From an uncultured Prevotellaceae bacterium (GTDB lineage Bacteria > Bacteroidota > Bacteroidia > Bacteroidales > Bacteroidaceae), in NCBI GenBank assembly GCA_902778535.1, contig CACYYG010000042.1, positions 1 through 57,265 of the forward strand: a stretch of DNA of 57,265 nucleotides, in the 5' to 3' direction. Shown here piece by piece: positions 50,891 through 52,626 of the stretch; the stretch's first letter is position 1; every line of letters starts with the position of its first letter. Made by a program: the position numbers and the translations under genes. The notes beneath the pieces are model-generated. The model saw nothing but the letters and a program-made list of their open reading frames with translations. It was not told the origin of the DNA and made no database searches.

Positions 50891-51787
50891 CTATAACTGC
50901 CAAAGGGGTTCCTGTCGCCAGTTTGACGGGAATCCCATCATGGCTGGATCTATTGACGGATTGCGAAGCAGCAATAGCTTGAGGTCGCCAACGAAAGTGT
51001 TGTTGGCGTCGATAGCATTCAGCCAATAGGCAATACAGCAGAGTTGGGCATATAGCGACTCTTCCCTGAATGTGAAGTTGGTAATCCACCTGTTGGGCAT
51101 TACTTGTGGTGTCGCTGGCTTCAAAGGATATGCACGATTCCATACTCTCGCATGGTGGGCACAATGATTACGCAGCGAGGTCAGACTTTCCAGCCAACTT
51201 GAAAGAAACTTGTGGTGATTCAGTCCAAACTCATGTGCAACATTATGTTTCAGTTGCGAATCATTGAAGTTGTTGAAGAGTTTTGAGAGTTCACCCAATG
51301 AAATCACCTCCAGCGTTTTCCAGACAGGCGGCAGGTCTGGATCAGAGTATTTGCGGAAGTGTTCACGGATATACCGCTCCTTAGAGCGACCGACTTCTTT
51401 TTTGATGGTGTCAAGGTTGGTCTGGAAACGCCTTTGATTTACAGCCTTTGTTTCATCCATAAACCAGAACGGACCACAAGTTGGGGCAAAGTGTTTGATG
51501 ACCTTTGATCTGACCGCCACCTCAATAGTCTGAATAGCCTTGAAGAGCAAAGCCTTCAAGTCCTTGTCGAAAAAGTAACAAGCTAATACCTCTTCAAAAT
51601 GACTGTTGGGAAGGAACTGATGAGTATGATGATCAGCTTCCAAATGAAACCAGTAGTCAGCCAATCGGAAGTAACTGATAGCATCAAGAGCTTGTTCTGC
51701 CTTATTGGTATCAGCAATCATCAGACCTCTGCCTTGCAGTGTCTGAATCTGCTGTGCCAGCGTCATTGCTTGTTTGGTATATCTCAT
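50891..51787 (-). CDS. Abi_2/AbiF-type HEPN abortive-infection protein
   Basis: This 298-residue protein is of the AbiD/AbiF (Abi_2) family, phage-defence toxins with an HEPN RNase fold. The family's conserved pieces are YFRLADYWFHLE, YFFDKDLKALLFKAIQTIEV, VWKTLEVISLGELSKLFNN and, at 206-211, the RNHCAH catalytic motif (R-x4-H) within SLRNHCAHHARVWNR. The start at 51787 (MRYTKQA) is used; the TTG 12 nt earlier lies in the leader RNA hairpin's tail. The leader carries a structured element like the AbiF RNA. Recent work links AbiF toxins and their RNAs to the origin of Cas13; that is established knowledge of the family, not seen here. Confidence 0.85.
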   Translation of the reverse strand: MRYTKQAMTLAQQIQTLQGRGLMIADTNKAEQALDAISYFRLADYWFHLEADHHTHQFLPNSHFEEVLACYFFDKDLKALLFKAIQTIEVAVRSKVIKHFAPTCGPFWFMDETKAVNQRRFQTNLDTIKKEVGRSKERYIREHFRKYSDPDLPPVWKTLEVISLGELSKLFNNFNDSQLKHNVAHEFGLNHHKFLSSWLESLTSLRNHCAHHARVWNRAYPLKPATPQVMPNRWITNFTFREESLYAQLCCIAYWLNAIDANNTFVGDLKLLLLRNPSIDPAMMGFPSNWRQEPLWQL

Positions 51788-51795
51788 GTCTATAT

Positions 51796-51851
51796 ACAAA
51801 AAATGTCCCGCTGGGTACGCTGTTCTTATGGGAAGCGGGCGGGATTTGTCG
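51796..51851 (-). ncRNA. AbiF-RNA-like structured leader or antitoxin RNA
   Basis: Between the promoter and the abi start the transcript folds: UCCCGC (51844-51839) pairs with GCGGGA (51811-51806), an inner CGCU (51837-51834) pairs with AGCG (51821-51818), and six U residues follow (51803-51798), like a terminator. This matches the kind of RNA (abiF motif) reported upstream of abiF genes, which may act as an antitoxin and attenuator. I recognise it by position and shape, not by alignment. Confidence 0.6.
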
Positions 51852-51853
51852 TT

Positions 51854-51862
51854 GCAAAGTTA
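51854..51862 (-). promoter_or_regulatory. Promoter of the abi RNA and gene
   Basis: The minus strand reads TAACTTTGC. A start about 7 nt later (near 51848) would put the whole hairpin into a short RNA, with read-through producing the abi mRNA. Confidence 0.6.
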
Positions 51863-51998
51863 GGCATTTTTCTTTTAACTTCCAAGTTTTTTGAGGCTTT
51901 TCCGCTATTTTTCGCTCAAAAAGTGGTTTCACAAGCCTTGTGAAAGGTTATTTTTATTCTTTTTTGGGGTAAAGCGATACAAATTCCTAAAAATTTCG

Positions 51999-52006
51999 TA
52001 TCTTTG
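51999..52006 (+). promoter_or_regulatory. Promoter of the unidentified structured RNA
   Basis: TATCTTTG followed by CAG matches the -7 consensus. It is divergent from the abi promoter, 137 bp away, and precedes 360 nt without a credible ORF. Confidence 0.6.
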
Positions 52007-52012
52007 CAGTGT

Positions 52013-52371
52013 TTTCGGAACCGTACCAGTTTGCTGGCTTACTGCCATCGGGAAGTAAGAATGCCGAAGCCCAAGGGTGGAGGCTGCGGGACGGGAACCT
52101 ATATATAGGAAAGGCGTTACTTGACGCTTTGTGCTTGACGCATCGGAATCTGGCAGTTCCAAACTAGTAGTCAGGAATCAAAGCAACAATGACGCTCATG
52201 GATATGTAGTATCCGACATTGGTCTGCTGACAGCCATTATTGGCTTCGATGCAGTCATAGCCGTTTATATACATATCGGCGTGGGCTTCGGCGTTGCTCG
52301 TTCAACTACTAGGGCGATGCCAGAGCCTCGATGCGTGGGACGAGTGACAGGAAGGTTCCCACGCTTCTTTT
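52013..52371 (+). ncRNA. Candidate structured non-coding RNA, about 360 nt, unidentified
   Basis: A promoter (51999) and an intrinsic terminator (GCGTGGGA 52333-52340 with TCCCACGC 52357-52364, then TTCTTTT) bound this unit. Many local hairpins are visible: CCAG-TTTG-CTGG, CTTACT/AGTAAG, AGCC/GGCT, CCTA-TATA-TAGG, GGATA/TATCC and AGCC-ATTATT-GGCT. Exact long-range complements are GCCGAAGCCC (52063) with GGGCTTCGGC (52283), CTAGTAG (52164) with CTACTAG (52306), and ACGCATCG (52138) with CGATGCGT (52329). The second pair lies in the loop of GGCGTTGC/GCGATGCC, a pseudoknot. RNase P and tmRNA hallmarks were looked for and not found. Confidence 0.6.
52333..52371 (+). terminator. Terminator of the structured RNA
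   Basis: An 8-bp GC-rich stem (GCGTGGGA/TCCCACGC) with a 16-nt loop is followed by TTCTTTTATG. Its left arm overlaps CGATGCGT, which can pair instead with 52138-52145, so two exclusive folds are possible. Confidence 0.7.
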
Positions 52372-52443
52372 ATGTGTAGCCTAACCCTTATTTGACAACC
52401 GCCATTCATTGGGAGTCTGTTTGGCATAAATGCTCAGTGAAGT

Positions 52444-52626
52444 ATGAGTGTAAAGTTAGGCATAGACTTCGACGATGAAGTCCGTCCAGTATTTATTAAG
52501 GGTGAAACAAAGAATGGCGTGTTTCATGTCAGAACTGAAGACTTCGAAACATACCCAGACCTTTCAGATTCAGATCGAAAAGATATTAGGAATGTTCTTA
52601 GAAACAGTAACGTAGTAATTGATTAG
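52444..52626 (+). CDS. Small hypothetical protein
   Basis: The 60-residue acidic product (MSVKLGIDFDDEVRPVFIKG at the start, then DRKDIRNVLRNSNVVID) is in the same direction as the lipoprotein genes after it, 14 bp before the next start. It has no signal peptide, membrane segment or known motif. Codon use and the ATG context look reasonable, so it is likely real, but no family is recognised. Confidence 0.5.
   Translation: MSVKLGIDFDDEVRPVFIKGETKNGVFHVRTEDFETYPDLSDSDRKDIRNVLRNSNVVID

Follow-up and report, generated by a model that had tools for sequence, protein, structure and literature searches.

The window, which is the whole stretch of 57,265 nucleotides analysed here, comes from an uncultured Prevotellaceae bacterium and carries on its forward strand an element that begins with a promoter-like box at 51999 and extends beyond 52371, to a complementary site at 52411-52417 and a gene at 52444. 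It specifies a folded RNA of about 300 nt that stands in front of diverse surface and defence-like genes of gut and rumen Bacteroidales and resembles a switch for the expression of the gene behind it. On the reverse strand lies a gene for an Abi_2 family protein (50891-51799, Pfam E 9e-53), before which, at 51795-51865 of the same strand, a possible GC-rich hairpin can be drawn (z -1.45, equalled by 16 of 200 shuffles, and without a match in Rfam). The features of the element are as follows, with the kind of evidence given in brackets for some of them.

51999-52006, +, Bacteroidetes-type -7 box TATCTTTG, promoter-like (TAnnTTTG in homologues)
52022-52059, +, insertion of about 38 nt close to the 5' end, specific to a subfamily and lacking in the close relative L005
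52063-52073, +, helix F, 5' strand GCCGAAGCCCA, partner 52282-52292
52110-52130, +, local hairpin P3, AAAGGCGTT..GACGCTTT
52113-52118 with 52191-52196, +, helix E, alternative to P3
52138-52145, +, helix A, 5' strand ACGCATCG, 8 pairs (covariation)
52149-52154, +, helix B, 5' strand TCTGGC, inside the loop of hairpin GGAA..TTCC (P5)
52164-52171, +, helix C, 5' strand CTAGTAGT (cis-matching)
52182-52187, +, helix X, 5' strand AGCAAC, partner 52293-52298
52278-52285, +, helix P1, 5' strand GGCGTGGG, pairs with 52358-52365
52282-52292, +, helix F, 3' strand TGGGCTTCGGC, sharing bases with P1 and with the 3' module's local hairpin
52296-52303, +, helix PK1, 5' strand GCTCGTTC, pairs with 52338-52345
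52305-52312, +, helix C, 3' strand ACTACTAG (cis-matching)
52319-52324, +, helix B, 3' strand GCCAGA (covariation)
52329-52336, +, helix A, 3' strand CGATGCGT (covariation)
52333-52364, +, terminator-like hairpin T, GCGTGGGA..TCCCACGC (covariation, folding)
52365-52374, +, U-tract after the stem (T-run count)
52411-52417, +, site D, GGGAGTC, complementary to 52354-52360 (GGTTCCC)
52444-52626, +, first gene behind the leader, 60 aa, no Pfam match, opening a same-strand gene run

The RNA family and its distribution

A DNA search (E up to 0.001) gave matches, some of them short, in 87 of the 200 genus genomes, the own genome among them, and a pattern scan of named genomes gave at least 118 loci. 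Among the matches listed, 80 of the at least 118 loci, nearly all belonged to Bacteroidales or groups within them, and they included Prevotella, Bacteroides, Phocaeicola oris, Hallella mizrahii, Xylanibacter rodentium, Paraprevotella xylaniphila, Muribaculaceae and Salinivirgaceae, as well as two metagenome bins labelled Clostridiales and Clostridium. A profile built from 31 members found the element, after one iteration, in 192 of 193 loci; it yielded 190 full-length rows, and 146 were left after dropping rows at least 92% alike. Using a covariance model of the 3' part, we detected five copies in the own genome (110.9 to 37.6 bits), up to 16 copies in members of the GTDB family (94 of 151 genomes, 19 of 22 genera), and matches for the order in 35 of the 247 genomes and 25 of the 166 genera covered, and in three of 394 genomes of the phylum sample, where the sole hit outside the order was weak (E 4.6e-4). 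These family, order and phylum lists consist of fairly complete genomes only and include the own genome.

The four further copies of the own genome lie at C40:19145-19249 (L195), C14:19346 (L196), C2:149908 (L197) and C11:56027 (L198). The last three are highly diverged and, as judged by eye, keep several helices and site D in different letters; in L197 and L198 the hairpin T is apparently missing and P1 is kept. Of the own-genome copies outside the window, one precedes a protein with an AbiH-like beginning. No match to the element was found in phage records. Two Phocaeicola plasmid records matched by BLAST over the 3' part, and the profile also aligned the core there; viral contigs contained one element, L193, on a putatively viral IMG/VR contig. 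On L193 (553-8970) this copy precedes a run of five ORFs that share its strand, and one of these has, by eye, an Hsp70-like start. A looser pattern picked out six stretches in viral contigs, L193 and L267 included, and L267, as read by eye, looks like a chance match. Weak antisense profile matches over the element (L014, L062, L195 and L199, opposite strand) were also noted; such antisense matches probably stem from its self-complementary strands.

The RNA folds better than its shuffled counterparts (minimum free energy -138.4; the shuffles average -113.3, z = -4.7, and 0 of 100 are equally good). The original prediction could name no known RNA for the span, and neither could we: with Rfam 15, there were no matches in the window at curated thresholds and none at E up to 5 in the 2.8 kb around the element, and 17 homologous loci gave four sub-threshold matches, none of them on the element. 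The element represents a real and apparently uncatalogued RNA family. In the parts of the literature that the search returned, no description of it was found, and a search with four of its sequence strings led to one unrelated paper. Fremin and Bhatt reported 3161 candidate structured RNAs of 27-219 nt from human microbiomes (PMC8040213), and that set may include a piece of this element.

A -7 promoter had been proposed at the start of the span, and the box TATCTTTG is indeed a recurrent feature of the family: TAnnTTTG was found 40-260 nt upstream of the conserved core in 126 of the 139 homologues with enough sequence (7 of 146 left out), whereas the opposite strand of these stretches had it in 32 of 139 and mononucleotide shuffles in 14%. 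Transcription would probably start a few bases past the box. The proposed lack of a credible ORF was borne out as well. The core lengths of the 146 elements are spread over the three phases (43, 50 and 53), so that no reading frame is conserved, and the two window ORFs inside the span matched no Pfam family at E up to 1. A protein encoded in the span was rejected on the phase spread and the absent Pfam matches, although open stretches of at least 60 aa, in one frame or another, occur in 92 of the 146 elements. Another candidate, a small ORF upstream (ATGACGCTCATGGATATGTAG in the window's copy), was dropped, since by eye it is not retained by the distant members among the homologues inspected.

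Long-range helices between the 5' and 3' blocks

The exact complements of at least 7 bp within 51999-52371 include F (11 bp), A and C (8 bp each), B (7 bp), P1, P6, one with the terminator arm and two further candidates of 7 bp. The three long-range complements announced at the outset (10, 7 and 8 bp) correspond to F, B and either A or C. Covariation confirms the helices A, B and C, F is supported, and the local hairpins claimed in the span are likewise present in the sequence.

The strongest evidence concerns helices A and B. All eight pairs of helix A form in 122 of the 137 elements with full-length segments, with 108 different letterings among the 146. In a separate MAFFT alignment of 25 divergent sequences chosen to be less than 70% alike, A and B together pair in 98.9% of cells (shuffled, 71.4%; slid, at most 52.6%), and 106 cells are changed on both sides compared with a shuffled mean of 29.3, with up to five pair types per position. 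Moreover, under a tree-based null the top eight column pairs, all belonging to A or B, exceed the maximum of all 12 simulated alignments. Some column combinations outside any base pair, such as 66-71 and 103-107, come close to it, so that part of this signal reflects kinship or misalignment. In the same test the pairs of C, E, T, P5 and P6 stay inside the null range, and those of P3 and E do not rise above it, except for the borderline pair 32-104 (E 0.25). As to its geometry, helix B may form a nested rod or a loop-loop contact, and both fit.

Helix C is characterized by matching in cis: at least 6 bp form in 143 of the 146 elements, with 133 distinct best-pair strings, and swapped 3' partners give 22%. 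Thus, the covariation among homologues to which the original prediction had pointed as a check is found in A and B, which stand above the tree null, while C is matched in cis. Helix F is less regular than A, B and C; it has 8 or more base pairs in 66 of the 142 elements covered (swapped 29%, shuffled 13%; 4 of 146 were left out, and the profile alignment begins after the F 5' strand). Where the 5' end has the motif GCxGAAG, the base x can form a Watson-Crick pair with the variable position of GGGCTTCNGC in 30 of 36 cases.

P4, P5, X, P3, P6 and PK1 were barely or not superior to swapped partners in the cis test, in which P3 scored 15.98 in cis and 15.38 swapped, its alternative E 14.66 and 12.63, and X 15.65 and 15.60. 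Helix X gave no covariation signal; its 5' strand is nearly invariant in the main subfamily, and by eye the two strands change together in some divergent members. Helix P4 (CTTGAC:GTCAAG; 14.21 in cis, 13.19 swapped) was rejected, as was the complement 52093-52100:52353-52360 with the terminator arm, which has no advantage in cis (13.78 against 13.80 swapped). Among 22 diverged loci inspected by eye, three of them from the own genome, many keep A, B, C, PK1 and D in other letters, and T or a clear D is missing in some.

The size of the RNA, its pseudoknots and its nearly invariant stretches are what would be expected of a self-cleaving or otherwise catalytic RNA, a reading that we consider very improbable, given that nothing over the element matches Rfam, ribozymes included, and that nothing points specifically to catalysis. 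The resemblance to RNase P, tmRNA or ribozyme-class free-standing RNAs suggested earlier was not sustained either: the homologues directly precede genes, ARAGORN finds no tmRNA genes in the window, and there is no conserved frame.

The 3' module and site D

The 3' part of the element combines two further helices with the terminator-like end. P1 and PK1 are each paired in 96.1% of cells; P1 shows both-sided changes in six of its eight pairs, and PK1 has a covariation score of 0.385 against 0.293 shuffled. The alignment used for these values was fitted to a model without PK1 and without all but three of the P1 pairs. The antisense matches L170 and L032 were included in the P1 and PK1 covariation and excluded from the counts of the T/P1/PK1 overlap and of the hairpin. 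T itself shows both-sided changes in four of six pairs. On its own the stem has a folding energy of -16.1 kcal/mol, and four or more T in a row come directly after it in 95.8% of 144 homologues, compared with 5.3% of random stretches (2 of 146 were left out of the U-tract and site D counts). A stem and U-tract conserved in place are a feature of attenuators. The intrinsic terminator of the original prediction is thus supported by stem and T run, but a simple terminator scan, which allows loops of 3-8 nt, called none, the loop of T being about 16 nt.

When folded alone, the 3' module (-41.8 kcal/mol) forms T and a long hairpin (GGCTTCGGCGTTGC:GCGATGCCAGAGCC), 13 of whose 14 pairs form in 71 to 98% of usable rows (89 rows); the 14th is a conserved C-A mismatch, formed in 7 of 82. 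B, X and F would need the strands of this hairpin as well. T overlaps PK1 in three pairs and has an arm in common with P1. A competition of one long-range complement with the terminator stem, as first proposed, is seen in the window, where the 3' strand of A shares the four bases 52333-52336 with GCGTGGGA (52333-52340); across the whole family, the conflict between A and T is confined to two columns. Mutually exclusive folds may exist, with strands overlapping among T, P1, PK1 and F and between the local hairpin and B or X; competing folds before a U-tract have the layout of a conditional terminator.

Beyond the U-tract lies site D, about 48 nt downstream (10th to 90th percentile, 37-55) and flanked, as seen by eye, by GCCA and TGGC (52401-52404 and 52422-52425). 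Its complement score is at least 14 in 74% of the 144 elements, compared with 14% for shuffled sequences and 44% when downstream regions are swapped; the 36 elements whose arms are unusual score only modestly better with their own site (14.98) than with downstream sequence from other loci (13.13). Folding of 52350-52445 alone gave neither D nor its small hairpin and was no better than shuffles (z +1.08). Because D comes after the U-tract, it cannot act while RNA polymerase is at the U-tract, and it would have a further role in the full-length mRNA.

This leaves room for a leader that does not attenuate transcription and acts on translation, mRNA stability or the resistance of RNA polymerase to termination, with the U-tract as a linker or weak pause. 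D lies some tens of bases or less upstream of the start codon and could pair with the arm only in full-length mRNA, and P1 closes the 3' domain even without T in 10 of the 89 rows (by the threshold used, neither was present in 8). We nevertheless regard such a leader as unlikely, since a run of at least four T after the stem in nearly all homologues is hard to square with a linker.

Position before genes and candidate mode of action

In 116 of 122 elements the next ORF downstream with 60 aa or more runs on the same strand, and in six it runs on the opposite one; it begins within 130 nt in 96 of the 122 (median 80 nt), which amounts to a conserved leader position. Another 22 of 144 elements, having less than 900 nt downstream, were omitted from this count. 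Upstream neighbours are on the same strand in 75 cases and on the opposite strand in 50, and the contrast between downstream and upstream is strong (Fisher p about 9e-12). A same-strand downstream gene at a narrow gap is the pattern of a leader and not of a free-standing RNA gene. Judging by position, we assign the element the role of a 5' leader RNA with high confidence; that it is a conditional terminator or other switch we hold with moderate confidence. Consequently, of the structured RNA with its own promoter and terminator that was originally proposed, the promoter-like box, the terminator-like end and the novelty with respect to Rfam are retained, and the free-standing 360-nt transcript is replaced by a leader before genes.

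A promoter-like box and a terminator-like end do bracket the RNA as they would a small RNA, and sRNAs derived from 5' regions have been reported in B. thetaiotaomicron (PMC7366714). That the element is mainly a trans-acting sRNA, placed before genes by chance, is in our estimation improbable, as it leaves both the strand bias and the narrow distance of the neighbours to coincidence, and as D, which lies outside the putative sRNA, matches its own element better than others.

The genes behind the leader were compared with Pfam, using 119 of 122 distinct first genes (the doubtful ORFs of L032, L049 and L052 were left out), 91 of 163 later genes and 110 of 125 upstream genes. The commonest matches of the first genes were BspA-type LRR_5 (14), LRR_8 (10), PEGA and CarboxypepD_reg (5 each), AbiH (4), BACON_2, DUF2971, DUF6140, LytTR and LRR_4 (3 each) and protein kinases (2), and the later genes include FHA, BACON, LPP20, Sel1, TerD, HSP70 and dynamin-like families. 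LRR_5 lies outside the best 25 families of the upstream genes, and so occurs at most once there; taking one, Fisher p is about 0.0008. By a crude signal-peptide rule, 44 of 100 first genes score, compared with 26% of 310 control ORFs. The downstream genes are thus diverse and without an evident common pathway, and defence genes are a minority of the neighbours. The suggested tie to an AbiF-type or other defence locus does not hold for the family, in which Abi_2 occurs upstream in 4 of 110 homologues and AbiH is the first downstream gene in 4 of 119; homologues are not regularly found near abi genes, and the Abi_2 neighbourhood in the window is incidental. HU-HIG DNA-binding proteins (4 of 110) and AAA_14 (5) were also observed upstream of homologues.

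Many copies per genome before unrelated genes could also be produced by a mobile DNA repeat that spreads as a promoter cassette. This is extremely improbable, as the own-genome copies are very diverged (see the range of bit scores above), compensatory changes preserve the helices, and no transposase is found among the best 25 of the 94 Pfam families matched by the first genes.

We consider it fairly likely that the element is a riboswitch-like, bistable, cis-acting leader that controls readthrough. Comparison of homologues establishes that a 5' block (the 5' strands of A, B and C) is complementary to a 3' block (the 3' strands of C, B and A). In one state, the 5' block would dock on the 3' block via A, B, C and X, together with PK1, P1 or F; in the alternative state, a local fold of the long hairpin and T would form, and the stem with its U-tract would terminate transcription. 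The choice between the states might be set by a ligand, a protein or the speed of transcription, and its outcome would decide whether transcription continues into the gene. If it does, site D of the resulting mRNA may keep the arm out of the terminator or may act on translation. That a single genome uses the element repeatedly before unrelated genes suggests that the signal is a general cellular one and not tied to one metabolic pathway.

Several known systems share parts of this layout. Orphan riboswitch candidates and attenuators, too, are long, structured 5' leaders in which alternative stems overlap and a U-tract precedes the gene, whereas the element has no Rfam match, diverse genes behind it and an extra pairing site after the U-tract. 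GEMM-type c-di-GMP riboswitches occur in many copies per genome before unrelated genes, as the element does; unlike them, it has no Rfam match in the window or in the 17 homologous loci. The put and EAR processive antitermination RNAs are leader RNAs before operons; the comparison with them is via Rfam only, and the terminator-like end, in contrast, belongs to the element itself. In the HMP-PP (thiS) riboswitch, whose aptamer is embedded in the terminator according to PMC6478431, the folded domain overlaps the terminator stem, as in the element, which differs in being pseudoknotted, in lacking an Rfam match and in not being bound to one gene family.

Bacteroidales are major members of gut and rumen communities, and to our knowledge riboswitch-type control is thinly charted in them. 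We tentatively put forward, as a possibility, that the elements constitute a new widespread class of signal-sensing leaders in Bacteroidales, in which two blocks are locked via the hypervariable, self-matching helices A and C, which would respond to a general signal in controlling dispersed surface, secreted, signalling and defence-like operons at up to 16 sites per genome, and in which D would be a second control point before the start codon. One RNA class at many sites per genome would link genes that are unconnected by annotation (LRR surface proteins, PEGA, FHA and kinase, AbiH), and the shared leader would offer a handle on the signal that such genes may have in common. Additionally, since two hypervariable helices match in cis, paired mutations offer a simple test of the fold.

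In the window, the 60-aa first gene is followed by a gene with a lipoprotein-like start, a zinc-ribbon gene with a sub-threshold RDD match, and more ORFs, including one for a WG-repeat protein. A similar first gene (60-68 aa) stands behind the leader in four genomes (L001, L005, L026 and L145), and the second gene is lipoprotein-like in L001, L005 and L026, the three in which a second gene was examined. By eye, the leader of L026 looks degenerate, with PK1 poorly paired.
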